NCBI GenBank assembly: GCA_900230115.1
Contig: LT907983.1
Coordinates: forward strand, 2,976,001 to 3,040,000
Length of the DNA stretch: 64,000 bases
Direction: 5' to 3'
Source of the DNA: Spirosomataceae bacterium TFI 002
Lineage (GTDB): Bacteria; Bacteroidota; Bacteroidia; Cytophagales; Spirosomataceae
A program made the translations under genes and the position numbers. Below are positions 26,738 through 62,523 of the stretch, one piece after another. Positions within the stretch are counted from its first letter, which is position 1. The number at the start of each line of letters is the position of its first letter. The notes below the pieces were generated by a model that saw only the letters and a list, made by a program, of their open reading frames with translations, had not been told where the DNA came from and made no database searches.

Positions 26738-26773
26738 TGTTCGAGAGCGAACAAAATCGTTCGAAAACGGACA
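26738..26773 (+). promoter_or_regulatory. Tandem activator boxes A (upstream of the lone plus-strand permease)
   Basis: TGTTCGAGAGCGAACA (26738-26753) and CGTTCGAAAACGGACA (26758-26773) are 16-bp dyads with a 20-bp period. Exactly 56 bases separate the second box from the GG of the TGGCAT element at 26829. Same layout as boxes B, C and D. Confidence 0.8.
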
Positions 26774-26828
26774 TTTTTATGAATTTGATAAACTCGTAAT
26801 TGTCTAATAATTAGATATTTAGATAATG

Positions 26829-26843
26829 TGGCATAGTTTAGGA
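26829..26843 (+). promoter_or_regulatory. Sigma-54-like promoter A
   Basis: TGGCATAGTTTAGGA: a TGGCAT -24 element and a G at the position expected for the -12 element. The canonical GC of the -12 is GA here. Predicted start of transcription is near 26855, leaving a very short leader. Confidence 0.6.
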
Positions 26844-26857
26844 ATTCTTTATATTAA

Positions 26858-29245
26858 ATGAGCACCATTATGATCTTAAAAACTGCTTGGCGAGATTTAA
26901 AAAAAGGTAAAGTTTATTCCGCAATAACTATAGCGGGACTGGGAATTGCAATGGCTGCAGTGACGTTGATTTTTCTTTGGGTTCAAAACGAATATCGTTT
27001 TGACTCTTACCATAGCAAAGCGGATCGAATTTATCGCTTGAATACGCATTTGCAAATAGGAAGTAATGATACTTGGCATTGGCCTCATACTCCATTGTTG
27101 CTAGCAGAAAGCGTGGAAGCAAAAATTCCTGAAATTACAGACTTCACTAGAATGACCATGTCCTATGGAAATGAAGTTTTGAAATATAATAATGCCCTCA
27201 TAAAGAATAAAAACTTGGTCTTTGTGGATCAAAACTGGTTGGAAGTTTTCGATTACAAGTTTTTAAAAGGCAATGTTGAAAGTTTTAAGGCTAATCCTTT
27301 TGGGATTGTGTTGACTGAGTCTCGTGCACAGGAGGTTTTTGGCTCTAGTGATCCAATTGGCAAAATCATTCAAATGGATGATAAAAACTTAGAAGTAGCT
27401 GGGGTTGTGGAGGATAATCCAAGTAATTCTAGTTTTCAATTCGAAGCCTTTGCTCCTATAGGGTCTCAATATCCGAATGAAGAACAAAAGAAAAATGATC
27501 GCGAACTGAATAATTTCAATTATCAGACTTTCCTTGTTGCCAGTAATCAAAGTATAAACGAATCAAAGGTTAGCGAAAAGATCACAACTTTATTTGCCGA
27601 AATGAGAGCAGATACAAGTAAAGATACCAGCTTGGAGCTTGCTCAGCTGAAAGGTATTCATTTTGACAATGTAGTTGTTTCAGAGGATTTGGTAAGTCCT
27701 GTGGATACTAAAAACCTAATGATTTTTGGCCTGATAGCTATTTTCATTCTCATGATTGCTTGTATCAATTATGTAAACCTCACTACAGCCAGAGCGAATC
27801 AGAAAAGCAAAGAAGTTGGAATCAAGAAGATCATTGGTGCATCTAGGACCCATTTGTTTTGGCAATTTATTGGCAGTTCGGCATTGATGAGTGTTATAGC
27901 TGCACTGCTTGCAGCACTTTTGATAGTTTTGCTTTTACCTTATCAGGAACTACTTTTTGCAACCAAATTTTCATTGGCCAATAATCCTTCTATTTGGTTA
28001 ATTTTATTTGGAACAACCCTGACAGCCATTGTTTTATCTGGTATTTACCCTTCTTTATTATTATCGGGTATAAAACCTATAAAGCTTTTTAGCGGCGGAG
28101 GAAAGGGAGGCAACAATGGACTTTTTAGAAAAGGTCTTGTCATTTTCCAGTTTACATTCTCAATTGTAATGTTGATGTGTACATTCATCGTATTTCAGCA
28201 ATATTATTATTTACAGAATAAGGACCTAGGATATAAAACTGATCACGTTTTCACGTTTACCATTCCTTGGAATTTGTCCAAAAACGAGGGAGTGTTGGAT
28301 AATTTTAAACAAAAATTGGCTGCTGAGTCCGCAATAAGTGATTTTACATTTACCAATAGCCAAATTGTACGAATTGGCAATACACATAGTGGCAGCTTAA
28401 AATGGGAAGGGAAGGATGAAAACTATGAGCCCACGGTAACTCAATTATCTGTGGATATGGCTTTTAAAGATTTTTATGGAATTAAACTTGCTTCGGGAAG
28501 ATGGTTCAATGGTGATAGTGAAGGTGAGAAAAAGAATATTATCATGAACGAAACGGCAGTGAAGGAATTCAATATCCCAAAGCCGGTCATTGGGCAAGCT
28601 TTTGAATTTCATGGTAAAAAAGGGCAGATAGTGGGAATAGTTAAAGACTTTCATTTTCAAAGTCCAAAACAAAAGATAACCCCTCTTATTTTGTTCAGAG
28701 GGGGATATTCAGGTAATGTAAACGTAAAGTCGAGCACCGAGAACTACGCAAAATCTCTTGCCATTGCAGAAAAGACTTGGAATGAACTGATTCCAAATAA
28801 GCCTTTTGAATACTCATTTTTAGAGGATACTTACCAAAAGATGCATAAAAGCGAGGAAAAGCAATTATTGATGTTCAACCTTTTTGGTGGAGTTGTTTTG
28901 CTTATTTCTTGTTTTGGTTTGTTTGGGTTGGCAACTTTTGCAACCGAAGTTAGGATAAAGGAAATAGGTGTAAGAAAAGTACTGGGTGCAGGAGTTTTAG
29001 GAATACTCACTTTGCTGAATAAAGAATTCATGAAATTAGTGGGCGTTGCCATGTTGATCTCCTTTCCTATTGCATGGTGGTTGATGAATATTTGGCTTAC
29101 TGATTATGCCTATCATATTGAAATTCAATGGTGGTTTTTCGCTGCTGTTGCAGCTGGGGTTATGGGTGTTACTTTATTGACAGTAAGCTATCAAACCATG
29201 AAAGCGGCAATGGCAAATCCTGTTACTTCGCTTAAAAGCGACTAA
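26858..29245 (+). CDS. FtsX/MacB-type ABC permease 0 (plus strand)
   Basis: 795 residues. It has the layout shared by all twelve permeases in this window: N-terminal amphipathic segment (ILKTAWRDL), first membrane helix (about 20-42), a large periplasmic domain, three helices with the first FtsX motif KSKEVGIKKIIGAS, a second MacB-type half, and a last FtsX domain with RIKEIGVRKVLGAG. It ends NPVTSLKSD. The start could be the ATG at 26858 or the one at 26870; the predicted transcription start leaves 3 or 15 leader bases. It carries no ATPase of its own and is 31 kb from the cluster's ATPase gene, but shares the box-and-promoter architecture. Confidence 0.92.
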   Translation: MSTIMILKTAWRDLKKGKVYSAITIAGLGIAMAAVTLIFLWVQNEYRFDSYHSKADRIYRLNTHLQIGSNDTWHWPHTPLLLAESVEAKIPEITDFTRMTMSYGNEVLKYNNALIKNKNLVFVDQNWLEVFDYKFLKGNVESFKANPFGIVLTESRAQEVFGSSDPIGKIIQMDDKNLEVAGVVEDNPSNSSFQFEAFAPIGSQYPNEEQKKNDRELNNFNYQTFLVASNQSINESKVSEKITTLFAEMRADTSKDTSLELAQLKGIHFDNVVVSEDLVSPVDTKNLMIFGLIAIFILMIACINYVNLTTARANQKSKEVGIKKIIGASRTHLFWQFIGSSALMSVIAALLAALLIVLLLPYQELLFATKFSLANNPSIWLILFGTTLTAIVLSGIYPSLLLSGIKPIKLFSGGGKGGNNGLFRKGLVIFQFTFSIVMLMCTFIVFQQYYYLQNKDLGYKTDHVFTFTIPWNLSKNEGVLDNFKQKLAAESAISDFTFTNSQIVRIGNTHSGSLKWEGKDENYEPTVTQLSVDMAFKDFYGIKLASGRWFNGDSEGEKKNIIMNETAVKEFNIPKPVIGQAFEFHGKKGQIVGIVKDFHFQSPKQKITPLILFRGGYSGNVNVKSSTENYAKSLAIAEKTWNELIPNKPFEYSFLEDTYQKMHKSEEKQLLMFNLFGGVVLLISCFGLFGLATFATEVRIKEIGVRKVLGAGVLGILTLLNKEFMKLVGVAMLISFPIAWWLMNIWLTDYAYHIEIQWWFFAAVAAGVMGVTLLTVSYQTMKAAMANPVTSLKSD

Positions 29246-29332: not shown

Positions 29333-30352
29333 ATGAAAAAGCTATTTACAACATTATCGATTTTATTTATCTCTATTTATGTTTTTGCCGACGATCAAAA
29401 ACCTTATTCCGTTAAAACTTTCAACGCTTCGGCGATAGAGAATATAGGTGTAAGAACTTCGGGTGGTGGCATCTCTGTTTTTGGCTCTAATGATTCAAAA
29501 GCAAGAGTGGAGGTTTATATCAAAGGAAATAACTGGAAGGATATTGACAAGGAGGAAATTGAAGAAAGACTTAAGGATTATGACCTTAAAATTGCCTTGG
29601 AAGGAAATACACTTGTTTGTACAGCCAAGCCAAAAAGTAATAGCATGAATTGGAAAAATGGACTTAGCATCAGCTTTAAAGTTTATTCTCCAATTGATGT
29701 AAATACAGACTTGAGTACATCTGGTGGAGGTATTAAAATGACAAACCTAGCCGGAAATTTGAAATTTAGAACCAGTGGTGGTGGATTAGATCTTGAAGAC
29801 TTGAAGGGAAATATCAAGGGCTCTACTTCTGGCGGTGGCATTGATGTCGTGAATTGTGATCAAAATGTAGAACTAAGCACTTCTGGTGGTGGTATCAATG
29901 CTAGAGATTGTGATGGTGAAATCAACTTGAACACAAGTGGCGGTGGTATTGGACTTAAGAAAATGAGCGGAAATATAAATGCAAGAACTAGCGGTGGTGG
30001 AATCAGCGTAGAATATTTGGACGGTGATTTAGTAGCTTCTACTTCTGGTGGAGGAATAAGCCTAGAGCATATTGCAGGTAGTGTAAAGGCGAGAACAAGT
30101 GCAGGTAGTATCAATGCAAGTATTGACGAACTGGGCGATTTTCTAGAGCTTTCTACAACAGCAGGCGGAATAGATATTGATGTTCCAAATGGCAAAGGAT
30201 ATAATTTAGACTTATCAGGAAATAAGGTAAACTTGAGCGGATTGGGTAGCTTCAATGGTAGCAAATCTGATGACAGAATGAAAGGATCAGTAAATGGTGG
30301 TGGAGCAGTTATTACTGCAAGAGCAAGCTCAGGTAGAGTTAGCGTTCATTAA
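29333..30352 (+). CDS. Secreted DUF4097-type solenoid protein with TSGGG repeats
   Basis: 339 residues with a signal peptide (ending near YVFAD). About eight repeats of 18-19 residues each begin TSGGG (for example RTSGGGISV, STSGGGIKM, RTSGGGLDL, NTSGGGIGL), followed by two altered copies (RTSAGSINA, STTAGGIDI). This matches the putative adhesin DUF4097 class, a right-handed beta-solenoid with glycine turns. No catalytic residues are evident. It starts 87 bases after permease 0, with no terminator between, so it likely belongs to the same sigma-54 unit and may work at the envelope with the transporter. Confidence 0.85.
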   Translation: MKKLFTTLSILFISIYVFADDQKPYSVKTFNASAIENIGVRTSGGGISVFGSNDSKARVEVYIKGNNWKDIDKEEIEERLKDYDLKIALEGNTLVCTAKPKSNSMNWKNGLSISFKVYSPIDVNTDLSTSGGGIKMTNLAGNLKFRTSGGGLDLEDLKGNIKGSTSGGGIDVVNCDQNVELSTSGGGINARDCDGEINLNTSGGGIGLKKMSGNINARTSGGGISVEYLDGDLVASTSGGGISLEHIAGSVKARTSAGSINASIDELGDFLELSTTAGGIDIDVPNGKGYNLDLSGNKVNLSGLGSFNGSKSDDRMKGSVNGGGAVITARASSGRVSVH

Positions 30353-30376
30353 TTTTACAAGTGAGATATTTTATTA

Positions 30377-30412
30377 CCCTCATTGACTTCGGTCGATGAG
30401 GGTTTTCTTTTT
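30377..30412 (+). terminator. Terminator after the DUF4097 gene
   Basis: CCCTCAT (30377-30383) and ATGAGGG (30396-30402), extended by GAC/GTC closing a TTCG tetraloop, then a T-rich tail (TTTTCTTTTTG). Confidence 0.85.
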
Positions 30413-30670: not shown

Positions 30671-33046
30671 TCAGTCCTTCAAATTCTCAACTGGATTTAC
30701 CAAAGCAGCTTTTATTGCTTGATAACTTACCGTCAGTATAGTGATGGCAATGATGCTGAAGAATGATATTGCATAAATAGAGAAGTCTATATCAGTCTTG
30801 TAAGCGTACTTGTTCAACCAGCTATTGATTCCATACCAGCTCAGCGGAAATGCTATAAGAACAGCAACGAGAGCGAGTTTGATAAAGTCTTTTGAAAGCA
30901 TAATTACCACTGTATTTATGGAAGCTCCAAGCACTTTTCTCACGCTTATTTCTTTAGCACGTTGTTGAGCATTGAACATCGCAAGCCCAAATAGTCCCAA
31001 ACATGAAATCAGAATTGCTAGGCCTGCGAAGTATTTGGAAAGTGTGGCTACTCTACGTTCCGATGTATACAGTTTTTGGAAATTATCATCCATAAAAGTA
31101 TAATTGAATGGATAGCCTGGGTTAAACTCGGCATATATTTCATTCAGTTTAGAAATAGCCTCCGCATTCTTTCCAGGAGCAATCTTTATCACAACTTGCG
31201 AAGTTCTTTCAGGCGAGTACCTAAATAATGTAGGTCGAATTTTCTCATGAACTGAGTTTGCGAAAAAGTCTTTTGTGATACCTACAATTATCTTTTCTTC
31301 GCCCCACATATTTACTTTTTTGCCAATTGGGTTTTGTAAGCCCATAGCTTTGATTGCTGTTTCATTAAAAATGAGCTTGTCGCCTTCTGCACCAAAATCG
31401 CTTGAAAAACTGCGACCTTCGGCCATGTCGATATTTAGTGTTTCTATGAGATTATAATCTACTGTTTTAATCGAAAAAACTACATCTATGTTTGGCTCAG
31501 AGCCTTCCCAACTTAAGCCAGATGTGTTTGAGTTATCACCTTCTTGGGCAATAGCACCTTGTATCGATGAGGCGTTCAACACTTCGGGCAGTGCTTTTAT
31601 TTGATTTAAAAATGCCTCCGAATTCTCCATCAATCCTCCGTCACGTTCTATATAAAGTATGTTTTCTTTATCGTAACCAAGGTTCATGTTTTGAATAAAC
31701 TGTACTTGCTTGTAAACAGCTAAAACAGCAACTATCAAGAAAAGCGATACTGCAAACTGAAAAACAACTAATCCTTTACGAGCCAGTAATTCGCTGAATG
31801 AAGTTTTCACTTTTCCCTTCAAAATACCAATTGTATTAATACCTGATAGATAAAATGCTGGATAATAACCTGAAATGATACCAGTGATCAAAGCTCCACA
31901 AAGGAGAATTAAAATGTTGTTGGTACTCAATTGAAATATGATTGATTTTCCAGTAATGTTGTTGAATTGAGGTAGAAGAATTTGAACCAAAACAAGGGCG
32001 ATGACCAATGAAATAAAAACGGTAATTACCGATTCAGTAAGAAATTGAGCGATCAAGCTTCTTCTTGAGGAGCCAACGGCTTTTTTGATCCCAATCTCTT
32101 TCTCTCTCTTGGAGGCGGTTGCCGTACTAAGATTTATAAAGTTGATGCAAGCGATAATTAGGATAAATAAACCAATGATAAAGAACAGCTTTACATAGGC
32201 TATGCGGCCTCCTGCCTGTTGGCCATTTTCATATGACCCGTACAAATACGCAGAAGAATAAGGTCTTACAAAAAGAGTAAACCGTGTGTCCTTGCTATAT
32301 GCATGCACGAAGTTTTTGATTTTAGCATTAAAAGCATCAATATCGGTTCCACTTTTTAGGGTAAGGAAGGTATTGGTGCCTTCATTGCTCCACTCCTTAA
32401 AGTTGGGTACCATGTCGAAAAGCGTTCCTTTTGTGAGCACGAAATCGAATTTCATGGTGCTATTTTCTGGTACATCTTCCATTACACCAGTAACTTTTGC
32501 CAAAACACCCATCCCGAAGAATTTGCAGTCAATAGTTTTGCCTAGCACATCTGTAGAACCAAACATTTTCTTTGCAAGGCTTTGAGAAATAACTACAGAC
32601 TCTTTATCATTAAATACTTGAGAAGCATTCCCTTCAATTAGCGGATAGCTGAAGATTTCGAAGAATGGTTTATCGGCAAAAATGGCTCCTGCTTTCACAA
32701 TCTTATTGTCGGGAGTAGTGAGATTGAAGTCGTACCCTTCATTCACCAATGAGAAAAAAGTGGTTGCCTTTTCAACTTCTGGCAGGTCTTTTACAATGGT
32801 TTCGGCTAATAGTCCTTGGGTGTCTGGATTTACTGAGATTGCTCCATTTGCATCCATAACTTCCATTACCTGGTAAAGTTGTTGGTCATTTTTATGAAAT
32901 TTATCCACTTTGAGTTCATCATTGACCCAAAGGAAAATCATAATCACACAAGCAATACCAGTAGAAAGCCCTGCTAAATTGATAGCAAAGGTGCTTTTAT
33001 TTTTCAGGGTATTTCTGAAGGCTATTTTGATGTAGTTTTTTAACAT
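30671..33046 (-). CDS. FtsX/MacB-type ABC permease 11
   Basis: 791 residues starting MLKNYIKIAFRN. First FtsX motif KREKEIGIKKAVGSS, second QRAKEISVRKVLGAS; ends NPVENLKD without the usual final Ser-Glu/Asp. Both halves carry MacB-like periplasmic domains (for instance KIIVGITKDFFANSVHEKIRPTLF, the motif seen in almost all members). It is the last gene of the five-permease unit that begins at 43062, and lies 105 bases after permease 10 with a TTGAAAG-type repeat in the gap. Without a matching ATPase gene next to it, it presumably uses the single ATPase at 59898. Confidence 0.92.
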   Translation of the reverse strand: MLKNYIKIAFRNTLKNKSTFAINLAGLSTGIACVIMIFLWVNDELKVDKFHKNDQQLYQVMEVMDANGAISVNPDTQGLLAETIVKDLPEVEKATTFFSLVNEGYDFNLTTPDNKIVKAGAIFADKPFFEIFSYPLIEGNASQVFNDKESVVISQSLAKKMFGSTDVLGKTIDCKFFGMGVLAKVTGVMEDVPENSTMKFDFVLTKGTLFDMVPNFKEWSNEGTNTFLTLKSGTDIDAFNAKIKNFVHAYSKDTRFTLFVRPYSSAYLYGSYENGQQAGGRIAYVKLFFIIGLFILIIACINFINLSTATASKREKEIGIKKAVGSSRRSLIAQFLTESVITVFISLVIALVLVQILLPQFNNITGKSIIFQLSTNNILILLCGALITGIISGYYPAFYLSGINTIGILKGKVKTSFSELLARKGLVVFQFAVSLFLIVAVLAVYKQVQFIQNMNLGYDKENILYIERDGGLMENSEAFLNQIKALPEVLNASSIQGAIAQEGDNSNTSGLSWEGSEPNIDVVFSIKTVDYNLIETLNIDMAEGRSFSSDFGAEGDKLIFNETAIKAMGLQNPIGKKVNMWGEEKIIVGITKDFFANSVHEKIRPTLFRYSPERTSQVVIKIAPGKNAEAISKLNEIYAEFNPGYPFNYTFMDDNFQKLYTSERRVATLSKYFAGLAILISCLGLFGLAMFNAQQRAKEISVRKVLGASINTVVIMLSKDFIKLALVAVLIAFPLSWYGINSWLNKYAYKTDIDFSIYAISFFSIIAITILTVSYQAIKAALVNPVENLKD

Positions 33047-33088
33047 TGAAATTTTATTTTAATTTTTTTCGAGTGGTTGATCTTGAAT

Positions 33089-33131
33089 ATTAAAGGTTCA
33101 CCTTCAACTTTTGACTTTCAACCTTCAACAA
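33089..33131. repeat. CCTTCAAC/TTTTGACTTTCAAC word repeat between permeases 10 and 11
   Basis: The words TTCACCTTCAACTTTTGAC and TTTCAACCTTCAAC follow each other here. Their reverse complements (GTTGAAGG, GTCAAAAG) recur at 35531-35547 and 59757-59898. No gene fits. Confidence 0.5.
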
Positions 33132-33151
33132 AGTCTTCAAAAACGAAACTA

Positions 33152-35518
33152 TTAGTCATTACTTAATGATTCTGTTGGGTTGGCAATGGACGAAGTGTAA
33201 GCGGTGGCTAAAACAAGGCATATTGCGATTCCAATGATGGAAAAGGCAAGGACTGCCATGTATAAATAGTTGATACCATTATTGAAAGTAAATAGAAAAC
33301 TGGTAATCATGTATCCCACAAGCCAGCCCAATGGCAAAGCAATAACCGCTGCAATAAGAAGCAGCTTAACAAAGCTTTTTGACATTAAAGCCATTATTTG
33401 TGTGATGGTTGCTCCCATTACTTTTCTAATTCCAATCTCCTTCACTCTTTTTTGACTTGTATAAGTCAGAATTCCTATGAGTCCCATTATTCCAATTAGA
33501 AAAATAACACCACATGCCCAAGCCATCACTTTCATGTCTTCTGATGGGTAATACCTCTCATATAGTTCCCTACTGAACCATGAACCCACTGCCTTGTCAA
33601 AAGGATAAAATCCAGACCAAGTTGCTGCTACGTCTTCTTCAAAATCATTTTCGATTGAAACATTATTTGTTTGTAAACTAGCCACCCTAAACATGCTCGG
33701 GTTGTATTGTAACACAATTGGTTGTATTTCGTATTGATAATTGAAATTGCAAAAGTCTTCTACCACGCCATATATTTGGACTTTTTGATTATTGTTCAAT
33801 ATGAGTTGCTGGCCAATAGCATCTTTTGGATTACCTAGATTTAGTCGGTTTAAGGTATTTCTATTCACCACAACAAAGCTACTTGCCGAGTCTGAAAGGC
33901 TATTTGGGATATTTTCTCCTGCAATTATTTCCAATTTCATGTTCTCAATGAAATTGTGGTCGACTGCGTAATAAAATGAAGCGATGTTTTCGTCTGTTTC
34001 TTCTATTTTAATGGCCGATTCAGCTGGGAGATTGCCAAAGGTTTGCGAAGTATAACCAATACTAGAAACCTCTTTTAACTCATTCAAGTCTTTTTCAAGG
34101 TTGCGATTAAGCCCTTCATGCAAAGACAAGTTGTAAATCCCTTTTCTATTGAAATTTTCGTTTTCTTTCGCCATGTAATTGAACTGGTTGTACATGTGCC
34201 CGATTTGAAAAACGAAAACGAGGGTAACTACAAATTGTAAAACGGTGAGAACTTGACGAAAGTTGAATTTGCCTAAAGTAGAAGGGCCTATTGAACCCTT
34301 TAGTATTTTTGCTGGGTCATATTTCGATAAGATTAGGGCGGGAAAAATTCCTGCTGCAGAACCCAGCAATATGGCAAAACAAAAGAACAAGAAATATACG
34401 ATATAGGTATTGTCAACTTCCCAAGTGATCCATTGGACATGAATATATTGACGCATTGTTGCAAGAATGAAAAGACCTAAAACAAGTGCCAAAAGTGAAA
34501 TAATGATTGCCTCGGCAAGAAATTGAAATACCAATTGGGAGCGTTTTGCACCCATAACTTTTCTTATTCCTACTTCCTGAGAGCGGCTGAGAGATCTTGC
34601 CAAAGTGAGGTTGGTGTAGTTAAATCCGGCAAGCAAGAGTATCATTAAAGGAATACTGAAGTTGAAATATATGTCTTGCATATCCTCCACATAAGGGTTG
34701 AACTCCAGCTTTTTTACAGCAGGTGAGATATCTTTAAATGCTTGAAGACTAAAAGCCAGAGTTTTGTGATCTTTGGCTGTAAAACCTTTACTTATTTTGG
34801 CTCCCAAAAGAGATAATGAGCTTTGAAGATTGTCTGCCTTTGCGTTTTGAGAAAGTTTAATAAATGTATGACTATCCAAGTCTCCCCATTCTTTAATCAA
34901 ATCATTGCTAGGGTGGAGGCTTTCATATGTAGCCATCGAAAGCATGATATCTGACTTGAATTGGGTTTTTGGTTTAAATGGCTTCAAAACTCCAACGATT
35001 TTAAACTCTCCATGGGTTACATGCTCCAATGATTTTCCTATTGGACTCACATCTCCAAAGTACCACTCAGCTTTTTCCTGACTAATCACGAGCGTATTTG
35101 GCTCCACAGGATATTGGCCTATTTCAAGTGGAAAGTTGAAGACTTGAAAGAAGCTAGTATCAACGAAAATGGTATTTAAATTACTGTTCTTTAGTACATT
35201 GTTTAGCTCCCATCCGTAATCACGTACTACATGAGTAGTGGTCTCTATACTAGGGTATTGGTCCATTTCTTTGGCCAATAAATATGGTGAAGAAGCAAAC
35301 GATTTTGTACTCCCGCCTTGGGAGGTTTCATCAGTAATTATTCTGAAAATGCGGTTTCTATCCTCATGCCAATTGTCAAACTCAAAAGAACTTTGGAGCT
35401 GGAGCAAAGAAAGTAATGCAAAAGGAATTGCGATTCCTAAGCCTACAATATTTATAAAAGAGAATAACTTGAACTTAATCAGGTTTCTCCAGGCAATTTT
35501 GATGTAGTTTTTTAACAT
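33152..35518 (-). CDS. FtsX/MacB-type ABC permease 10
   Basis: 788 residues starting MLKNYIKIAWRN. First FtsX motif SRSQEVGIRKVMGAK; second KRVKEIGIRKVMGAT; ends NPTESLSND. Its periplasmic segments differ more from the others: the first half has the FNYTNLTLARSLSRS helix and the second half lacks the common VGVIKDFH wording, having VYGVVEDFCNFNYQ instead. Otherwise the eight-helix layout is intact. It is flanked on both sides by spacers with TTGAAGG-type repeats. Confidence 0.92.
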   Translation of the reverse strand: MLKNYIKIAWRNLIKFKLFSFINIVGLGIAIPFALLSLLQLQSSFEFDNWHEDRNRIFRIITDETSQGGSTKSFASSPYLLAKEMDQYPSIETTTHVVRDYGWELNNVLKNSNLNTIFVDTSFFQVFNFPLEIGQYPVEPNTLVISQEKAEWYFGDVSPIGKSLEHVTHGEFKIVGVLKPFKPKTQFKSDIMLSMATYESLHPSNDLIKEWGDLDSHTFIKLSQNAKADNLQSSLSLLGAKISKGFTAKDHKTLAFSLQAFKDISPAVKKLEFNPYVEDMQDIYFNFSIPLMILLLAGFNYTNLTLARSLSRSQEVGIRKVMGAKRSQLVFQFLAEAIIISLLALVLGLFILATMRQYIHVQWITWEVDNTYIVYFLFFCFAILLGSAAGIFPALILSKYDPAKILKGSIGPSTLGKFNFRQVLTVLQFVVTLVFVFQIGHMYNQFNYMAKENENFNRKGIYNLSLHEGLNRNLEKDLNELKEVSSIGYTSQTFGNLPAESAIKIEETDENIASFYYAVDHNFIENMKLEIIAGENIPNSLSDSASSFVVVNRNTLNRLNLGNPKDAIGQQLILNNNQKVQIYGVVEDFCNFNYQYEIQPIVLQYNPSMFRVASLQTNNVSIENDFEEDVAATWSGFYPFDKAVGSWFSRELYERYYPSEDMKVMAWACGVIFLIGIMGLIGILTYTSQKRVKEIGIRKVMGATITQIMALMSKSFVKLLLIAAVIALPLGWLVGYMITSFLFTFNNGINYLYMAVLAFSIIGIAICLVLATAYTSSIANPTESLSND

Positions 35519-35530
35519 TTCATACTTTTT

Positions 35531-35547
35531 TGTTGAAGGTCAAAGGT
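35531..35547. repeat. TTGAAGGTCAAAGG repeat between permeases 9 and 10
   Basis: TTGAAGGTCAAAGGTT matches the wording at 59776-59788 and, inverted, at 33089-33131. Confidence 0.4.
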
Positions 35548-35648
35548 TTTTTGTTCGGGTTAACTTTCCTATTTACAGTTTCCTGGGCGTGGACTTTATA
35601 CACTAGCAGTCTTGTAAAAACTTTCTACTTCACTTTCCCAACTAATAA

Positions 35649-38048: not shown

Positions 38049-38116
38049 AATTATACAATTTAATTTCTCAAACTGTCAGTTTGAGAATAGTCTAGAATCT
38101 CTTGTTAACCATTAGA

Positions 38117-40498: not shown

Positions 40499-40521
40499 AA
40501 TTTTAATGTTTTCTATTATTT

Positions 40522-40607: not shown

Positions 40608-40635
40608 ATTTTACCAATGTTTTTAAAACTCACTT

Positions 40636-49016: not shown

Positions 49017-49041
49017 ATCAATTTCCTTTTTTAGAGTGTAT

Positions 49042-49109: not shown

Positions 49110-49145
49110 TGTCCGAATGCGAACAGTAATGCACATTTGTGGACG
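49110..49145 (-). promoter_or_regulatory. Tandem activator boxes C
   Basis: Promoter-side box TGTCCGAATGCGAACA (49110-49125) is near-perfect; the distal one at 49130-49145 (TGCACATTTGTGGACG) is degenerate but keeps the 20-bp period. The gap to the GG of promoter C is 54 bases. Confidence 0.7.
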
Positions 49146-49216
49146 TTGAGTTTTAAAGTGATTTCAAAAAAATACCCCAGTATTATGAGGTATTTAATGT
49201 TTGATTTGAATGCTAA

Positions 49217-49507
49217 TTAGCTCAGCATGAGTTCTCTTTGCTTCTTGAGTTCGTCTTTTTTTACAAAAGTAATAGGAACAAATTCGTCTGTTGGTGAGCC
49301 TATAAAATACAAGCTCCAGTCTTGGTCGTAGTCCTTGAGTAGGTTTTTAATGCATTCAGCCCTGTCTACAGTGGGTATTGCACAATCTTCCCAGTAGAAT
49401 AACTCTACGCGGTAATGTAATTGCTGTTTCTGACCATTGATTGTTACTTCAATTTCAACGTCTTGCTTGCCTTTTCCTTGAGGCAATGGAATAGCTATGT
49501 GTGCCAT
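49217..49507 (-). CDS. Small cytoplasmic protein of unknown function, last gene of the adaptor operon
   Basis: 96 residues, no signal peptide and no membrane helix. It opens MAHIAIPLPQGKGKQDVEIEVTING, looks like a small beta protein (HYRVELFYWEDCAIP, WSLYFIGSPTDEFVPITFV) and ends in a charged helix (KKDELKKQRELMLS). The Cys in FYWEDCAIP and in RAECIKN are the only two. I do not recognise the family. It follows permease 4 by 169 bases without a terminator and precedes boxes C, so it may be the tail of the large operon, but its own promoter is not excluded. Coding status is supported by length and composition. Confidence 0.65.
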   Translation of the reverse strand: MAHIAIPLPQGKGKQDVEIEVTINGQKQQLHYRVELFYWEDCAIPTVDRAECIKNLLKDYDQDWSLYFIGSPTDEFVPITFVKKDELKKQRELMLS

Positions 49508-49511
49508 AATT

Positions 49512-52082: not shown

Positions 52083-52108
52083 TTTTTTTTATAGCTTTTT
52101 CATTTTTT

Positions 52109-52228
52109 GGAACAAGGAACAAGGAGAATAGAAAGTATCTTTCGCCTTTTTTATTTACCACTAATTTCTTCAATCCAACTTCAAAAAATATTATCTCCCT
52201 TTGTCCTTAATTCCTTGTTCCTTTCTCC
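52109..52228. repeat. Hairpin repeat (MITE-like) between permeases 3 and 4
   Basis: The left end GGAACAAGGAACAAGGAGAA (52109-52128) is answered by TTCCTTGTTCC at 52211-52221 and TTTCTCC after it. About 80 bases of unrelated sequence lie between. No gene. Same arms as at 40522. Confidence 0.65.
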
Positions 52229-52262
52229 AATGGAAAACATATTTATATCCAATACACCATCA

Positions 52263-54665: not shown

Positions 54666-54696
54666 TTCTTTGATTTTTTAGCTTTTTCTTTTTTTT

Positions 54697-54787
54697 GGAA
54701 CAGGGAATTAAGGAACAAGGAGAATGCATTTTATATTTTATAGAAATTCTCCCTTCTCCCTTCTCCTTTTTCCTTTCTCCATGTTCC
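54697..54787. repeat. Hairpin repeat (MITE-like) between permeases 2 and 3
   Basis: Left end GGAACAGGGAATTAAGGAAC... (54697-54725, running on as AAGGAGAAT) and right end from ATTCTCCCTTCTCC (54746) to CATGTTCC (54780-54787) are imperfect inverted copies; the two outer bases GGAACA and TGTTCC match exactly. Only about 20 A/T-rich bases lie between the arms. Confidence 0.65.
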
Positions 54788-54801
54788 CTAAAACCTAATA
54801 C

Positions 54802-57210
54802 CTACTCCAGCCTCATCGCATTTACATGGTTTCCTATTGCCGCTTTTATGGAGTGGTATGAAACCGTGAGCATTGTAAGAGCAAGCACAATGAAGGCTGA
54901 GAAAACAAATACCATTGGATTTATACTTGTGTGATAGGTGAAAGTTTCAAGCCAACCAGATAAAAAGTAATAGGAAATAGGGAAGGCGAGTAAACATGCA
55001 ACTCCAACTAAAACAAAAAAGCTTTTTGCCATAAGGTAAACGATCTGACCACTTTCGGCTCCCATAATTTTACGTACAGCAATTTCTTTTTTTCTTTGTT
55101 GAGTGGTGTAGGCAATAAGTCCTAGAAGCCCTAAAAATGCCAACGCAATGGTCAAAATTGAGAATGTGGAGAATAATGTACCACGAGTTTGATCTTCTTG
55201 AAATTGAGCTTTAAAGTCTTCATCGGCGAAACTGTAGTCCATGGCCTCATCTGGAAAAGTTTCTTTAAAAAGTTTCTCAACAGAAGCTATCGTCTTATCT
55301 ATATTTTCATTGCTAACTTTTAATTGAATAGAGCCGTTGTTATGCGAATAAGTGAGCATTAATGGAGCAATAGGATTATAAAGCGACCTCATATGGAAAT
55401 CTTTTATTACACCTACCACATAGAGATAAGGCCTAGACTCATCGGGAAACTGACTTTTTATCCTCTTGCCAATTGCTTTATCTCCCCAATTTAAATGTTT
55501 TACCATTGCTTGATTGACAATTACACTTGTACTAGAATCAGGCTGATCGCTCAATCGAAAGTTTCGACCTTCTGCCAACTGAATGTTAAAGTTTTTCAAG
55601 AAGTTTTCGTCAATCCCAAAATTGTCTAAACCTTGTGACGTGAAGCCTTCATTATTTTCTACTTCGAACAAGTTGTAATTTTGACCAGTGGTTCCTGGTG
55701 TGTAAAATGAAGTAGAAGCTTCTTTTACTGTGGGTAATTCTAAAGCTCTGTTTTTTAATAAATTCACAGTATTGCCATTGCGACCATCTGTAAAAGGTAA
55801 ATTGACTATCAATATATTTTCCTTATCGTATCCTAGGTCTTTGGATTGTAAAAAACTTAATTGATTGTAGATAACCCATGTAGAAATCAACATAATAATG
55901 GAGATTGTAAACTGAACTACTACCAAACTTTTACGTAATCCAGCATTGGACGAAGCTTTAGAAAGCTTGCCTTTTAAAACCACCAAGGGATCAAATTTTG
56001 CTAAAAAGAATGCAGGGTAACTTCCACCAATAAAGCCAGCAGCTATTACAATGCCCAGCGTATATAGGAAGCTTTTGGTTTGGAGTAGAGAGCCAATTGT
56101 AAATGATTTTCCCGATAAGTCATTAAATGTAGGTAACAGTACAGCAATAAGCACAACACTTATTAAAAACGAAATACCTGCGAGCAACATAGACTCTGTG
56201 ATAAATTGAGCAATGAGTTGTGGTTGTAATGAACCTGAGACTTTGCGAATTCCAATTTCCCTTGCTCGTCGTGCAGATCTTGCCGTGGTGAGATTCATGT
56301 AGTTGATACAGGCAATAAGTAGTAACAATATAGCTACAGCAGAAAAAGTATAGATATAATCCATATTGCCCAATGGCTCGGCTTCATAAATTGCCTCGCT
56401 TGTCAAATGAATGTCTTCAACATTCATAACGGAATACTTCATTTTGACATTAAATTGCTCAAAAATAGACTTCTGATATTTAGGGTAAATCTGTGCTAAG
56501 CTTTTTTCAAATGCAGGTACATCCGTTTTAGGATACAAAAGAACATAAGTAAATGCTCCAAAGTTGCCCCAGTTTCCAGGTCCGCTTATATCATCTGCAA
56601 TGGTAGCCATTGATATTAAAGCATTATAAATCACATGTGATTTCTGAGGAATGTCTTCAAATACGCCTGTTACCAAGTACCTGTTTTCACCTTCTCCTTT
56701 TAATGATTTACCCAATGCTTTTTCAGAAGTAGTAAAGTACTTTTTTGCTATTGTTTCGGAGAGAACTATAGCATTGGGAGCATCTAAAGCAGTATTGGGG
56801 TCGCCCGCTAAGAAAGGAATAGTAAAAATGGAAAAGACGTTGCTATCTGCATAAAATACTTTTTCAACAAAACCTTCATTGTCATTGTAGGAGAGTGCAG
56901 TTTGCTGATCGCCATAAAGTAACCGTGCAGACTCTTCTACTTCTTTATAATCCAATTTTAACTGCGGGCTCATAATCATTGGGCTTATTGCAGTTAAATC
57001 AGTTTTGTCAGGCTCTATAAGGGTCGAGTTTACTCTATAAATACGGTTTCCTTTAGAATGATAATCATCGAAACTCAATTCGTCTTGAACATAATAAAAC
57101 AGTAGCAAACTAAAAGTTAGTCCAATGGTTAAACTTAGTACATTCAGAGCCGTGAAACCCTTATCGTGCATGAGCGTCCTCCAAGCGATTTTAATGTAGT
57201 TTCGTATCAT
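54802..57210 (-). CDS. FtsX/MacB-type ABC permease 2
   Basis: 802 residues starting MIRNYIKIAWRT. First FtsX motif RRAREIGIRKVSGSL; second QRKKEIAVRKIMGAE; both differ from the others (Arg for Lys in the first; Ala for Gly in the second). It ends NHVNAMRLE instead of the NPVxSLKSE of nearly all paralogues, so its cytoplasmic C-terminus may contact a different partner. Otherwise the layout is normal. Confidence 0.93.
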   Translation of the reverse strand: MIRNYIKIAWRTLMHDKGFTALNVLSLTIGLTFSLLLFYYVQDELSFDDYHSKGNRIYRVNSTLIEPDKTDLTAISPMIMSPQLKLDYKEVEESARLLYGDQQTALSYNDNEGFVEKVFYADSNVFSIFTIPFLAGDPNTALDAPNAIVLSETIAKKYFTTSEKALGKSLKGEGENRYLVTGVFEDIPQKSHVIYNALISMATIADDISGPGNWGNFGAFTYVLLYPKTDVPAFEKSLAQIYPKYQKSIFEQFNVKMKYSVMNVEDIHLTSEAIYEAEPLGNMDYIYTFSAVAILLLLIACINYMNLTTARSARRAREIGIRKVSGSLQPQLIAQFITESMLLAGISFLISVVLIAVLLPTFNDLSGKSFTIGSLLQTKSFLYTLGIVIAAGFIGGSYPAFFLAKFDPLVVLKGKLSKASSNAGLRKSLVVVQFTISIIMLISTWVIYNQLSFLQSKDLGYDKENILIVNLPFTDGRNGNTVNLLKNRALELPTVKEASTSFYTPGTTGQNYNLFEVENNEGFTSQGLDNFGIDENFLKNFNIQLAEGRNFRLSDQPDSSTSVIVNQAMVKHLNWGDKAIGKRIKSQFPDESRPYLYVVGVIKDFHMRSLYNPIAPLMLTYSHNNGSIQLKVSNENIDKTIASVEKLFKETFPDEAMDYSFADEDFKAQFQEDQTRGTLFSTFSILTIALAFLGLLGLIAYTTQQRKKEIAVRKIMGAESGQIVYLMAKSFFVLVGVACLLAFPISYYFLSGWLETFTYHTSINPMVFVFSAFIVLALTMLTVSYHSIKAAIGNHVNAMRLE

Positions 57211-57239
57211 AACTTGTGTTGTTTTATAGCTTCTTTTTT

Positions 57240-57338
57240 AGGAAGTATGGAAAAAGGAGAAAGGGTTTTTCGCTTTTGTCCTTGTTTTTTTACCACCAAG
57301 GCACAATGACACGAAGTTTTTTTATTTTCCTACTTCCT
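57240..57338. repeat. Compound repeat between permeases 1 and 2
   Basis: AGGAAGTA (57240-57247) and TACTTCCT (57331-57338) are inverted ends. Inside are GGAAAAAGGAGAAAGGG, then TACCACCAAGGCACAATGAC followed by ACGAAG (57291-57316), which resembles the reverse strand of 19138-19163. The right arm runs to within six bases of the permease 1 stop codon. Confidence 0.55.
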
Positions 57339-57343
57339 ACTTC

Positions 57344-59737
57344 CTATTCACTCCGCAAACTCCTTACTGGATCCAGAACTGCAGCTTTTAATGCCTGATA
57401 ACTTACTGTAAGCAATGAGACTAAAACGGTGACAAGCCCTGCCAGTGCAAAAGCCCACCACGGCATACTGACTCTAAATGCAAACCCATCGAGCCAACTG
57501 TTTAGATAATACCAAGCCAGTGGAGCTCCTATCGCGAATGATATTAAAACCAATGTCAGAAAGTTTTGAGAGAGCATTCCAAAAATACTGGTCACGCTTG
57601 CCCCCAATATTTTTCTGACACCTATTTCTTTGGTTCTTTTCTCAGCAGTATATGCTGCCAAGCCAAATAGACCTAGGCTAGCAATAAGTATTGCAGCAAG
57701 AGAAAAGAAGAGGATTATTCGAGACATTCTAGTCTCAGAAGCATAAAGTTTTGCTGTAAAATCATTCAAAAACATATATTCAAATGCAGAATTTGGCATT
57801 TGCTGACTGAATGTCTTTTCAATACTTTGTAAGTTGTCAGCGGTTTTTCCCCCTTCGCATCGAATCAAAAGATTAGGTCGTCCTTCGCTTTTATTATTGT
57901 GAAATGCATAAGCTCCTATTGGCTTATGAAAATCGGCATGGTGAAAATCTCTCATCACACCAACAATGGTAGCATTATTCCAGCCAAAGAGGTTATAGGC
58001 AGTTTTACCAATTGCTTCTTCTGGTGTGTAACCATAGAACTTTATCGCAGATTCGTTTAAAACTACCTGAACCATTGTGTCTTCAATAGCTTTATTGCTA
58101 GGTAAAGAATTACCAGCCAAAAGCTTAATATCAAGTGTTTCTAATACTTCTGGACCTGAAAAGTTAGTACTAATAGAAGCATAGACCTCTCTATCTTCTG
58201 GTTTTGACATTGTACGAGTACTTAAATTTCCCCCAGGGAGTGCTTGTACTCTAGCTGTGCTTTTTACAAAGCTTAATGCTTTTATCTCGTTGATCAATCC
58301 ATCGATTTGATCCTTGCTTTCTGCACCCTCTGTTGATATAGAAATTACTTGTTTGGCATTATATCCAAGGTCTTTCTCTTGCATAAATCGAAGTTGGACA
58401 TAGAAAACAAGCGTACATATAATGAGAACTATTGACGCCGAAAACTGTAGAACTACTAAGCCCTTTCTAGCAAATTCACCTGCTGCGTAAGATTTGTCTT
58501 TTCTGCCAAAAAGCGATAATGGTGAAAAAGAGGAGATCATTAATGCTGGATATGATCCTGCCAGAATTGTGAGAACAATGGTTATACCAACAATGGCGGT
58601 AAGAATTTCAGAACTAAGGGCCTCTGAAAAAGTCATGCTGTTCTCTGCTACGTAATTAAAAAGCGGCAAACCGACCATAAAAAGTATTAGACCAGATATC
58701 ATTGCTAGCGAAACCATAATAAATGCCTGAACGTAAAAACGCTTGATAAGGCTACCTTGGCTCGCACCCATCACTTTACTAATACCAACCTCTTTTTTGC
58801 TTTTTTGGGATTGGGCTGTAGCAAGGTTCATATAATTGATACAAGCAATTATTAGGATAGCAATGGCAAGGGCGATCAGGATATTTATTTGTTTGATATC
58901 GCCTATTCTAGTTGTAGAAGCATTGGTGATATTGGTTGAATATAAGTGCACCTCACTCAATGGCTGAACCCAAAAAGTAAACCATCGCTCGGGTTCTGGA
59001 ATATTCTTTTCCAATATGGAATTGACATTCTTAGTTAAGCTAATTAAACTAGTATTTTGACCCAAAAGAAAATAGGTTTCATAACTAGCATTACTCCAGT
59101 GTAGACTTTTTGAGGCCCACTGAATAGTGGCAAATGATCCCAAAATATTGGCATCTATTGTGGAGGTTTTAGGAAAGTCCTTGTATACTCCAGAAACCAA
59201 GACGTCAAATTCGTTATCTATTTTAAGTGTTTGACCAGTAGGGTCATTTGATCCAAAATACTTGTGAGCTATGCTTTCGCTCAATAGTACATTATTGGGG
59301 TCGTCTAAAGCAGTTTTAGCATTACCAAAAACCAAGTCGACATCAAAAATGTCAAAAAAACCTGCGTCTGTCCAATATAGTTTTTGTTCCGAAAACTTAT
59401 CGTTTTTAGAGTTTACAAAGGCTGTTTTGCCAAATGAGTGATGCAATAAGCGAGCATAGGTCTCAATTTCCGGAAGCTCCTTCGTCATTGTAGGCCCAAC
59501 AATATTTGGTACACAAGCCCAGTCTTCGGTTTGCCCATCAAAGCTTACTTCTTGGCCAATACGTACGATTCTGTCATAATTGGAATTATGCTTATCAAAC
59601 GAAAGCTCTTGCTTTGTATATAGGAATAAATACAAAAATATGGCGATGCCCATGGACAGGCCAAATAAGTTAAGAGCAGTAAACACCCCATTTTTAAAGG
59701 TATTTCTCCAGGCGATTTTGAAGTAGTTTCGTAGCAT
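57344..59737 (-). CDS. FtsX/MacB-type ABC permease 1
   Basis: 797 residues starting MLRNYFKIAWRN. First FtsX motif KSKKEVGISKVMGAS, where Ser replaces the usual Arg; second KRTKEIGVRKILGAS; ends DPVRSLRSE. Periplasmic segments contain GNAKTALDDPNNVLLSESIAHKYFGSNDPTGQTL, the recurring element (xSESxAxKYFG) seen in all twelve copies. As the first permease after the ATPase gene (161 bases downstream), it is the likeliest primary partner of that ATPase. Confidence 0.94.
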   Translation of the reverse strand: MLRNYFKIAWRNTFKNGVFTALNLFGLSMGIAIFLYLFLYTKQELSFDKHNSNYDRIVRIGQEVSFDGQTEDWACVPNIVGPTMTKELPEIETYARLLHHSFGKTAFVNSKNDKFSEQKLYWTDAGFFDIFDVDLVFGNAKTALDDPNNVLLSESIAHKYFGSNDPTGQTLKIDNEFDVLVSGVYKDFPKTSTIDANILGSFATIQWASKSLHWSNASYETYFLLGQNTSLISLTKNVNSILEKNIPEPERWFTFWVQPLSEVHLYSTNITNASTTRIGDIKQINILIALAIAILIIACINYMNLATAQSQKSKKEVGISKVMGASQGSLIKRFYVQAFIMVSLAMISGLILFMVGLPLFNYVAENSMTFSEALSSEILTAIVGITIVLTILAGSYPALMISSFSPLSLFGRKDKSYAAGEFARKGLVVLQFSASIVLIICTLVFYVQLRFMQEKDLGYNAKQVISISTEGAESKDQIDGLINEIKALSFVKSTARVQALPGGNLSTRTMSKPEDREVYASISTNFSGPEVLETLDIKLLAGNSLPSNKAIEDTMVQVVLNESAIKFYGYTPEEAIGKTAYNLFGWNNATIVGVMRDFHHADFHKPIGAYAFHNNKSEGRPNLLIRCEGGKTADNLQSIEKTFSQQMPNSAFEYMFLNDFTAKLYASETRMSRIILFFSLAAILIASLGLFGLAAYTAEKRTKEIGVRKILGASVTSIFGMLSQNFLTLVLISFAIGAPLAWYYLNSWLDGFAFRVSMPWWAFALAGLVTVLVSLLTVSYQALKAAVLDPVRSLRSE

Positions 59738-59756: not shown

Positions 59757-59898
59757 ACTGTTGAAAGTTAAATTTTGAAGGTCAAAAGCCCTTTTGACTC
59801 GTTTTTTGTTCTATTTAATAGAGGTTAAAAATCAAAGTTTGAATCAAATGATTTATTGCATATTTCGAATTGAAAGTTAAAACCTTCAACCCTTGACC
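59757..59898. repeat. TTGAAAGTTAAA/CCTTCAAC repeat between ATPase and permease 1
   Basis: TGTTGAAAGTTAAATTTTG with GAAGGTCAAAAG (59758-59788) is followed by CTTTTGAC (59790-59797), and ATTGAAAGTTAAAACCTTC with AACCCTTGACC (59869-59898) ends at the stop codon of the ATPase gene. GAAGGTCAA/TTGACCTTC-type arms give it an imperfect hairpin character. Related wording at 33089 and 35531. Confidence 0.5.
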
Positions 59899-60575
59899 TA
59901 CACATGAAAATTCTCAGTGACTATCTTTCCATCAAACAAGTTGATCACTTTGTGTGCGAAACCTGAATCGTATGGTGAGTGAGTAACCATGGCGATAGTA
60001 GTACCTTCATTATTCAGTTCTTGCAAAAGCTTCATCACATCTTCTCCATTGGCAGAGTCCAAGTTTCCAGTAGGCTCATCGGCAAGGATTAGTTTTGGCT
60101 TGGCAACAACAGCACGAGCAATTGCGACACGCTGCTGCTGTCCTCCAGATAGTTGCTGTGGAAAGTGGTTGCGGCGATGCATCATATTCATTCTTTCTAG
60201 TGCGGCTTCTACTTTTACTTTTCGCTCAGCAGTTGGTGTTTTTAGATAAAGTAAAGGAAGTTCTACGTTTTCAAACACAGTAAGTTCATCAATCAAGTTG
60301 AAGCTTTGGAATACAAAACCAATGTTTCCTTTACGCAATTGAGCTCTTTGTCTCTCGCTCATGCCAGCCACTTCGGTTTCGTAAAAGTTGTAACTACCGT
60401 CGCTAGGATTATCTAGCAAGCCAAGGATATTGAGTAGGGTAGACTTACCACAACCCGAAGGTCCCATGATGGCTACAAACTCTCCATCTTTAATTTCTAA
60501 ATCAATGCCATTCAAGGCCGTGGTCTCAATTTCTTCTGTGGTGAAGACTTTTTGAAGGTTGGTTGTTTTTATCAT
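59898..60575 (-). CDS. ABC transporter ATPase, MacB/LolD-type
   Basis: 225 residues, the only transport-type ABC ATPase in the window. Walker [10 protein letters not shown] (38-46), Q-loop [18 protein letters not shown], signature LSGGQQQR (142-149), Walker [13 protein letters not shown] and switch MVTHSPYD are all intact, and the short form is typical of the LolD/MacB/FtsE class that drives FtsX-domain permeases by mechanotransmission. It lies between the four-helix-bundle element and permease 1. With twelve permease genes and one ATPase gene in reach, it probably serves many or all of them; this is inference. Confidence 0.96.
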
Positions 60576-61136: not shown

Positions 61137-62387
61137 TCATTTCAAATCCAAAACCTCTTTATCTCCAAAGTTGCTATACGAACTCGTTACTACTACATCT
61201 CCTTCTTGCAATCCATCAAGCACTTCGTAGTATTGAGGGTTTTTTCTTCCCAGGGTGATGTTTCTCTTTACAGCCTTACCTCCCGTATTGTCCACAACAT
61301 ATACCCAGTTTCCACCTGTATCGCTAAAGAATCCACCTACAGCCAATAATGTAGCTTCAGATGACTTTCCAAGTTCAAGTCTAAGCGGAACAGACTGTCC
61401 TCTACGAATTCCATCTGGCGTTCCTTTTGTAAATACTAGATCAACTGCGAATCTCCCATTCAAAACTTCAGGATAAACTTTCACGATCTCCAAAGGGTGT
61501 GTTTTGCCATTGAAGTCAAAACCAGCATTTAGTCCAGCAAAAATTCTTGAAATATAATGTTCGTCGATTTCAGCTCTCATTTTGAAACCATTCATGTCAT
61601 CTATTTGGCCAATGTTTTGACCCTGATTGATATTTGACCCTACCTCTACGTCAATAGAGGAAAGCAAACCAGCTACTGGAGCTTTAACTACTAGGTTTTC
61701 CAGAGTTTGTCTCCATAAGTCAACATTTTTTTGAGTCCTTTCAAGCGTTCCTTCCAATTGCTTGATTTGCAATTTGGCATTGTCTTCTTGGTATTTTTGG
61801 GATTCAATTTCGATAGATCGCTGATTCTTAAGTCTCTCGTATTCTCTTTTAGAGGTATTGTACTCTAGCTGAGAAATCACTTTATCCTTTATCAGCATTT
61901 CATTTCTGTCAAATGCATCTTTTGCTTGAGCTGTTTGAAAGTCTAAGTCGGAGAGTGTTTTTTGCAAATTGAAACGCTCAACCTTCAGTCGCTGTCTGGT
62001 ATTTTGAAGGTCGTTTACCAACCTACTTGCTTCGGTTTCCGATTGTAAGAAGTTAAGTTTTAGTTGCTGGTTTTCAAGTCTCAAGATAATATCTCCTTTG
62101 CCAACCATATTACCACCCTCAACGAGTTTTTGGGTAACATAACCTCCAACTATTGCATCAAGTTGTATGGTTTTAAGTGGTTGTACATATCCTTGTATGA
62201 TGATGAATTCATCAAAATTTCCTTTTGCTACTGTGGAGGTAGTTATTTTTTCAGCATCCACATTGAGCTTAGAGCGTTTGTCGGCAAATACGAAACTATA
62301 TATCAGCAGACACAATATAGCTAGTCCTAGTAGCAGCCAACCTGCTTTTCTTTGTATCCACGATTTCTTTGCGATTATCTTATCCAT
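61137..62387 (-). CDS. HlyD/MacA-type periplasmic adaptor protein
   Basis: 416 residues. An N-terminal cytoplasmic stub (IIAKKSWIQRKAG) precedes a single membrane helix (about 16-34). Then come a biotinyl-lipoyl-like half (IIIQGYVQPLKTIQLDAIVGGYVTQ), a long coiled coil (about 110-220; NDLQNTRQRLKVERFNLQKTL...ERTQKNVDLWRQTLENL), the second lipoyl half (VVKAPVAGLLSSIDVEVGSNINQGQ) and beta-barrel and membrane-proximal domains (VPLRLELGKSSEATLLAVGGFF). It should link the inner-membrane permease to an outer-membrane channel, which is not in this window. It is the first gene behind boxes D and promoter D. Confidence 0.93.
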   Translation of the reverse strand: MDKIIAKKSWIQRKAGWLLLGLAILCLLIYSFVFADKRSKLNVDAEKITTSTVAKGNFDEFIIIQGYVQPLKTIQLDAIVGGYVTQKLVEGGNMVGKGDIILRLENQQLKLNFLQSETEASRLVNDLQNTRQRLKVERFNLQKTLSDLDFQTAQAKDAFDRNEMLIKDKVISQLEYNTSKREYERLKNQRSIEIESQKYQEDNAKLQIKQLEGTLERTQKNVDLWRQTLENLVVKAPVAGLLSSIDVEVGSNINQGQNIGQIDDMNGFKMRAEIDEHYISRIFAGLNAGFDFNGKTHPLEIVKVYPEVLNGRFAVDLVFTKGTPDGIRRGQSVPLRLELGKSSEATLLAVGGFFSDTGGNWVYVVDNTGGKAVKRNITLGRKNPQYYEVLDGLQEGDVVVTSSYSNFGDKEVLDLK

Positions 62388-62417
62388 TCAATTCTTCTTG
62401 TTTTCGTTTTATGTTAT

Positions 62418-62432
62418 ACTAACCCTATGCCA
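62418..62432 (-). promoter_or_regulatory. Sigma-54-like promoter D
   Basis: Read on the minus strand: TGGCATAGGGTTAGT, TGGCAT at 62432-62427 and the conserved G at the -12 position (GT in place of GC). Predicted start near 62406, about 19 bases before the adaptor gene. Confidence 0.6.
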
Positions 62433-62487
62433 AAAGAGTTAAGTGTCATAATATCAATATATTAGCATTGTGGGTGATTGATTCACT

Positions 62488-62523
62488 TGTTCGGCTGTGA
62501 ACAAAGATGTTCAAATACGGACA
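62488..62523 (-). promoter_or_regulatory. Tandem activator boxes D
   Basis: TGTTCGGCTGTGAACA (62488-62503) and TGTTCAAATACGGACA (62508-62523), 20-bp period; 56 bases separate the near edge from the GG of promoter D. The boxes lie between the adaptor gene and the divergent response regulator gene and could also influence the latter. Confidence 0.78.

Follow-up and report, generated by a model that had tools for sequence, protein, structure and literature searches.

What holds together the expression of twelve large, duplicated permease genes that lie in four groups, on both strands, in one region of a Spirosomataceae genome? The question is raised by the window, that is, the whole stretch of DNA analysed here, 64,000 nucleotides of contig LT907983.1 of Spirosomataceae bacterium TFI 002 (positions 2,976,001 to 3,040,000). 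An earlier note, made from its letters alone, had proposed that four identical pairs of activator boxes, each followed by a sigma-54-like promoter, define one regulon under an enhancer-binding protein (EBP) encoded at 62651. Here, I show that such paired boxes recur in related genomes, that within the family they stand at helically phased distances from promoter-like elements, and that they are associated both with pump genes and with genes of that regulator. Very probably, a membrane kinase and the 62651 regulator together switch on a single sigma-54 regulon whose products form a tripartite exporter.

Paired dyads and sigma-54-type promoter elements

The sites and the elements that follow them, heading units A-D in the window and unit E outside it, are:

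26738-26773, plus strand: putative activator box pair A, two 16-bp dyads at a 20-bp pitch
43178-43213, minus strand: putative activator box pair B, two 16-bp dyads at a 20-bp pitch
49110-49145, minus strand: putative activator box pair C, the 49110 box good, the 49130 box degenerate
62488-62523, minus strand: putative activator box pair D, in the gap between the regulator and adaptor genes
26829-26844, plus strand: sigma-54-type -24/-12 element A, TGGCAT and a G at -13, start predicted at about 26855
43107-43122, minus strand: sigma-54-type element B, TGGCAT, T at -16, G at -13
49041-49056, minus strand: sigma-54-type element C, TGGCAT, T at -16, G at -13
62417-62432, minus strand: sigma-54-type element D, TGGCAT, T at -16, G at -13
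C1:2944639-2944674, minus strand: fifth box pair (unit E), about 31 kb before the window, found by a relaxed scan

Three boxes (26738, 43178 and 49110) match TGTYCG-N4-CGRACA exactly and four (26758, 43198, 62488 and 62508) with one mismatch; the box at 49130, the promoter-distal dyad of pair C, departs from this strict consensus at five positions, so that the four pairs announced as identical are present but similar only. Their 20-bp pitch, said to be exact, holds in the window and gives way to 21-22 bp in some relatives. The DNA that separates the boxes from the promoter varies in sequence from site to site.

From the end of the box pair to the T of TGGCA, 55 (A), 55 (B), 53 (C) and 55 (D) bases were measured, equal to the 56, 56, 54 and 56 bases previously counted to the GG; the T and the G described as conserved after TGGCAT were likewise recovered in 4/4 elements, at offset 10 (-16) and offset 13 (-13), the T of TGGCAT being set as -26 and the predicted start lying 26 bases after that T. 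As judged from the sequence, T at -16 together with G at -13 is the register of a sigma-54 promoter. The boxes then lie about 82-117 bases ahead of the predicted start, with dyads centred near -89 and -109, and the predicted starts precede the favoured start codons by 15 (A), 34 (B), 14 (C) and 19 (D) bases. In two of the units A-D the favoured codon is not the start of the longest open reading frame (ORF): because a short Met-(Leu/Ile)-(Lys/Arg)-Asn motif, or something like it, opens most of the permeases, unit A was taken to begin at 26870 and the first gene of unit C near 49016, and not at 49046 as formerly supposed.

Reversed-pattern versions of the box motif, scanned alike, served as controls. 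A single dyad with at most one mismatch is not enriched in the 5.46-Mb genome (16 places versus 29 for the control), and the analysis was therefore built on pairs. The strict tandem pair, at up to three mismatches, occurs at three places in the genome and its control at none, pair C and the fifth site being missed; the relaxed pair (TGTYCR-N4-YGRACA twice, at most three mismatches) occurs at five places and its control at one. The contention that the layout cannot be chance is thus upheld for the tandem pair but not for the single dyad. The genome-wide scan for pairs gave few matches, with no flood in unrelated DNA, and 5/5 relaxed pairs precede pump genes; at the same threshold no box pair was found before the other permease genes of the cluster. 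At the fifth site TGGCACAGTGTATG stands 53 bases downstream, with T at -16 and G at -13, and the TGGCA and -12 elements keep a fixed register at 5/5 own-genome sites (TGGCA[T/C], 53 or 55 bases). This site precedes a gene for a 221-aa ATP-binding cassette (ABC) ATPase and one for a 428-aa outer-membrane efflux protein (Pfam OEP, 168.7 bits), which is what the one-regulon hypothesis predicts; all four units first proposed stand, and the proposed regulon has five.

Recurrence before pump genes in related genomes

In the kin sample, pairs were found in 13/39 genomes (own included; 51 pairs), against three control matches in 2/39. In the family sample, pairs with at most one mismatch occur in 35/121 genomes versus 0/121 for the control, and in the phylum sample in 6/198, two of the six belonging to the same family, again with no control match.

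All but one of the 48 relatives' sites of the kin sample were examined (G015 C11:231213 was left out). At 39/47, the start of a homologue of a window pump part, of the DUF4097 protein, or of the ATPase or channel of unit E lies no more than 700 bp away to one side; on a stricter count, in which the match must begin near the protein start, this holds for 38/47 sites versus 968/7276 random positions (13%) in the same loci. A further 28 loci, a subset of the family and phylum matches of which three (L111, L122, L127) repeat kin-sample sites, carry such a homologue within 500 bp in 26 cases and within 850 bp in all 28, the weakest being L176 (28% identity at 850 bp). Two loci of genus g9, L046 and L121, have DUF4097 genes behind their box pairs. 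Separately, in two genera, a gene behind a box pair encodes a protein of 139 aa (L055:4463-4882 and L062:4410-4829); the two proteins begin alike, match DUF3244 weakly and are possible further members of the regulon.

Helical phasing of the distance between boxes and promoter

The training set of a -24/-12 matrix consisted of 32 matches at 53-55 bases. With each site left out in turn, the matrix was run over as much as 220 bases to either side of 52 sites (47 relatives' sites, four in the window and one elsewhere in the own genome), the 98th percentile of mononucleotide shuffles serving as threshold. Best matches passing it number 43 and cover 42/52 sites; their distances are 43 (3), 53 (12), 54 (11), 55 (7), 65 (6), 67 (1) and 107, 108 and 109 bases (1 each), and no others. 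The 13 matches outside the main class show a phase concentration of 0.92 at a period of 10.8-10.9, these being not independent of each other, for the six at 65 are promoters of orthologous adaptor genes, and all three at 43 come from one genome (G017). Whole-turn phasing is tight in the family; it is looser or differently set beyond it, and not universal.

The regulator, its kinase and their probable link to the sites

Facing unit D across the gap that holds pair D are:

62651-63982, plus strand: NtrC-type response regulator with receiver, AAA+ domain with GAFTDA loop and Fis-type helix-turn-helix
63990-64000, plus strand: start of the sensor kinase gene, which runs on past the window (L016:3990-5303)

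In the regulator, Response_reg, Sigma54_activat and HTH_8 are all above cut-off, and the receiver Asp and Walker A are present. Its nearest named relatives by protein are Cytophagales, for instance Jiulongibacter (69%) and Dyadobacter (62%). The kinase encoded directly downstream has 437 aa, HATPase_c and two predicted membrane segments; HisKA gave no match in the domain scan, and a candidate phospho-accepting His was seen by eye.

The earlier note had the 62651 regulator control all four units, the distant unit A included. The claim is supported by what adjoins the regulator genes elsewhere. A composite, defined as a box pair followed by TGG[CT]A at 42-44, 51-56 or 63-67 bases, adjoins the regulator in 26/63 regulator loci (several of them identical or closely related, as with L076/L135 and L092/L154) versus 0/1260 mononucleotide shuffles; since only preset distances were allowed, this count says nothing on phasing. 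Every match listed points away from the regulator, into an adaptor or permease gene, and among the named records with the composite are Dyadobacter jejuensis, Siphonobacter and Roseivirga (of the 35 named regulator loci, L151 and L156 were dropped for too little upstream DNA). A paralogous regulator group, four loci within the 63, has the composite in 0/4. Three genomes (G004, G008, G028) hold a regulator with no adjoining composite and pairs elsewhere.

The Roseivirga regulators gave a first impression of being box-less, which was overturned when their gaps were read directly: they hold pairs with changed outer bases ahead of permease genes, several of which pass the wider composite test. By eye, box-like repeats and TGGCA elements also occur in three divergent loci, one of them a Rhodothermia record (L137, L139, L143), uncounted in that test.

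Across the family sample, with presence scored on 14 candidates per genome, a regulator orthologue was found in 33/35 box-positive versus 59/86 box-negative genomes (Fisher p 0.0015, kinship uncorrected).

In the proposed mechanism, envelope stress or an export substrate, the probable signal, would lead the kinase to phosphorylate the regulator, which would then bind the two neighbouring dyads near -89 and -109, loop to a sigma-54 polymerase waiting at the TGGCA elements, and spend ATP to open the promoter. The five units (A-D in the window, E elsewhere) would thereby supply an adaptor, two ATPases, a channel, twelve ATPase-less permeases and a DUF4097 protein.

Genes of the units

The genes behind the sites of the window are:

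26870-29245, plus strand: unit A, duplicated MacB/FtsX permease, start at MILKTAWRDL, longest ORF from 26858
29333-30352, plus strand: unit A, DUF4097 (toastrack) protein, with homologues behind box pairs in relatives
30376-30403, plus strand: terminator-like hairpin after unit A
30671-43062, minus strand: unit B, a presumed operon of five duplicated permeases (first bases 43062, 40528, 38048, 35518, 33046)
44187-49016, minus strand: unit C, two duplicated permeases
43263-44105, minus strand: GH16 glycosyl hydrolase, uncertain last member of unit C
61137-62387, minus strand: unit D, periplasmic adaptor (membrane fusion protein, HlyD type), closest NCBIfam model DarC
59898-60575, minus strand: unit D, ABC ATPase, closest NCBIfam model DarD
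49677-59737, minus strand: remainder of unit D, four duplicated permeases (first bases 59737, 57210, 54665, 52082)

A MacAB-TolC-like set of parts is thus encoded by the five units together: HlyD in the adaptor, MacB_PCD and FtsX in the permeases, ABC_tran in both ATPases and OEP in the unit-E channel (Pfam). All twelve permeases, of about 800 aa, carry MacB_PCD and two FtsX stretches, and no similarity to the ATPases was found in any of them; the two regulon ATPases are 48% identical to each other. A genome-wide search for MacB_PCD gave a sole other frame of permease length, at 4895322, with its own ATPase gene beside it, the remaining matches elsewhere in the genome being frames of 398-465 aa.

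Units B, C and D would each form a single transcript. Apart from hairpins within genes, terminator scans gave a single weak one, on the minus strand in a gap (60771-60757, five pairs); a 10-pair hairpin lacking a T run stands ahead of the permease at 38048.

Three further features of these units were noted. A gene for a 23S rRNA-intervening-sequence-type protein (PF05635; 60559-61041, plus strand) runs opposite to unit D, in the interval from its adaptor gene to its ATPase gene. The permease spacers at 52082-52263 and 54665-54802, and in part those at 40528-40636 and 57210-57344, hold purine/pyrimidine-rich repeats (GGAACAAGGA and its complement), from which long RNA hairpins could form, with energies as low as about -38 kcal/mol. 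In the space from unit D to promoter C (about 49200-49510, minus strand) there is a small ORF of some 95 residues and what looks by eye like a hairpin with a string of T after it.

Contrary observations and other explanations

Several observations weigh against a single regulon of this kind. Eight of the 47 relatives' sites lack a pump homologue within 700 bp (L045, L049, L055, L059 (5001), L062, L063 (9514), L072, L073), and 10/52 sites have no promoter match above threshold. Outside the family, four sites have TGG elements at 59, 63, 63 and 67 bases, the first about half a turn off, and Roseivirga-type loci mostly stand at 51-53 bases. Ahead of the permease at 38048, within unit B, there is a sigma-70-like match (11 of 12), such matches being no commoner there than in shuffles. 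All of the statistics given here are uncorrected for kinship.

The sigma-54 contact loop of the 62651 regulator reads GAFTDA, not GAFTGA. The same variant was found in 26/30 relatives, paralogues included (L074-L103), and the pattern was not found in four; in the excerpt available, PMC4641369 counts GAFTDA among the loop variants expected to keep activity.

The genome also has three sigma-54 genes (Sigma54_DBD, rpoN), any one of which could be the acting one. Two of them lie in tight cassettes with an NtrC-type regulator and a histidine kinase (C1:1136465-1140137, L172; C1:1787674-1792084, L173), with reading frames that overlap by one to four bases; the third, at 4060643, would therefore be the likelier partner of this regulon.

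The alternative that survives best, unlikely as it is, takes the boxes and sigma-54 elements as real but bound by a different EBP, the 62651 regulator being a mere neighbour. Four more EBP-like matches (E <= 1e-40) exist in the genome, 37/63 regulator loci, some of them clear orthologues, lack an adjoining composite, and the regulator was not detected in two box-positive family genomes, G014 (320 contigs, 98% complete; the adaptor was likewise not found there) and G039 (66% complete). Against this stand the composites in the gap between regulator and adaptor or permease at 26 of the 63 loci, Dyadobacter, Siphonobacter and Roseivirga included, and at none of the four paralogous ones; moreover, two of the other EBPs belong to the sigma-54/EBP/kinase cassettes just described.

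Very improbable is a reading of the dyads as operators for a classical repressor, or for a sigma-70 activator, of transport genes, with TGGCA incidental. A dyad with TGT and ACA ends is a common operator shape, and a gene for a PadR-type regulator stands behind one site (L069); yet an unrelated operator would not give 43 above-threshold -24/-12 matches all at a few distances, whole turns apart, and boxes some 82-117 bases before the predicted start are far for simple repression.

That the tandem dyads arose by chance or as an artefact of a duplicated permease region can practically be dismissed, for all that the single dyad does not exceed its control and the permease genes repeat each other: the reversed pair is absent from all 121 family genomes while 35 have the true one, the sites precede adaptor and ATPase genes too, and the box-promoter stretches differ.

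Comparison with known systems

The regulon under the 62651 regulator resembles those of NtrC-family EBPs (NtrC, ZraR, AtoC type) in domain order, paired upstream sites, -24/-12 promoters and an adjacent kinase, and the best solved relatives of the regulator are an NtrC-family protein (4l4u) and ZraR (1ojl). It differs from them in the GAFTDA loop, in having a many-permease exporter as target and in the dyad TGTYCR-N4-YGRACA; the regulator falls below the cut-off of each of the best 25 of 75 matching NCBIfam models. The EBP motifs with TGT and ACA half-sites that appear in the excerpt of PMC4641369 have them 9, 11 or 12 bp apart, as against 10 here.

As to the pump, the adaptor, the ATPase and two scanned permeases match the models of the darobactin exporter DarBCD (NF038008, NF038010, NF038007), but all lie below the equivalog cut-offs (DarC 205.1 of 450, DarD 276.8 of 375, DarB 134.7 and 127.9 of 700 bits), and one permease there contrasts with twelve here (no search for darobactin genes was made). 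With the ADOP permeases (TIGR03434) those of the window share a length of about 800 aa, two FtsX regions and the lack of an ATPase domain, yet the two of the twelve that were scanned score 280.7 and 251.5 bits against a cut-off of 622.3. The DUF4097/LiaG-like protein recalls the phage shock and Lia systems, and phage shock is activated through sigma-54 by PspF; the regulator here is, in contrast, a two-component EBP, and the LiaG model gives 46.8 bits against a cut-off of 285.

No description of this regulon was found in the open-licence literature, where PMC12316311 (2025) alone is directly relevant. Its available excerpt reports sigma-54 promoters predicted and enriched before COG0577 FtsX-like permeases in Bacteroidia, gamma-Proteobacteria and Opitutia, and calls this link the first evidence; that excerpt names no activator, activator site, spacing rule or regulon membership for the permeases. 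As far as could be seen, the mechanism is of a known kind, and the regulon, its site and its pump are new.

Significance

The single regulon proposed here supplies a likely controller, a predicted binding site and a gene list for a large and little-studied set of duplicated ABC permeases. The family offers, in addition, a natural series of activator-promoter distances (43, 54, 65 and about 108 bases), whole helical turns apart.

A bolder reading, offered tentatively and held to be somewhat on the doubtful side, is that of a modular exporter, in which a shared adaptor, ATPase and channel would serve a dozen interchangeable ATPase-less permeases, with phased sigma-54 promoters, and the co-regulation that they give, keeping the scattered set together in this family and possibly in the wider phylum. 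The idea of a shared ATPase becomes testable by genetics and, if true, the modular reading would explain how "orphan" duplicated permeases are powered.

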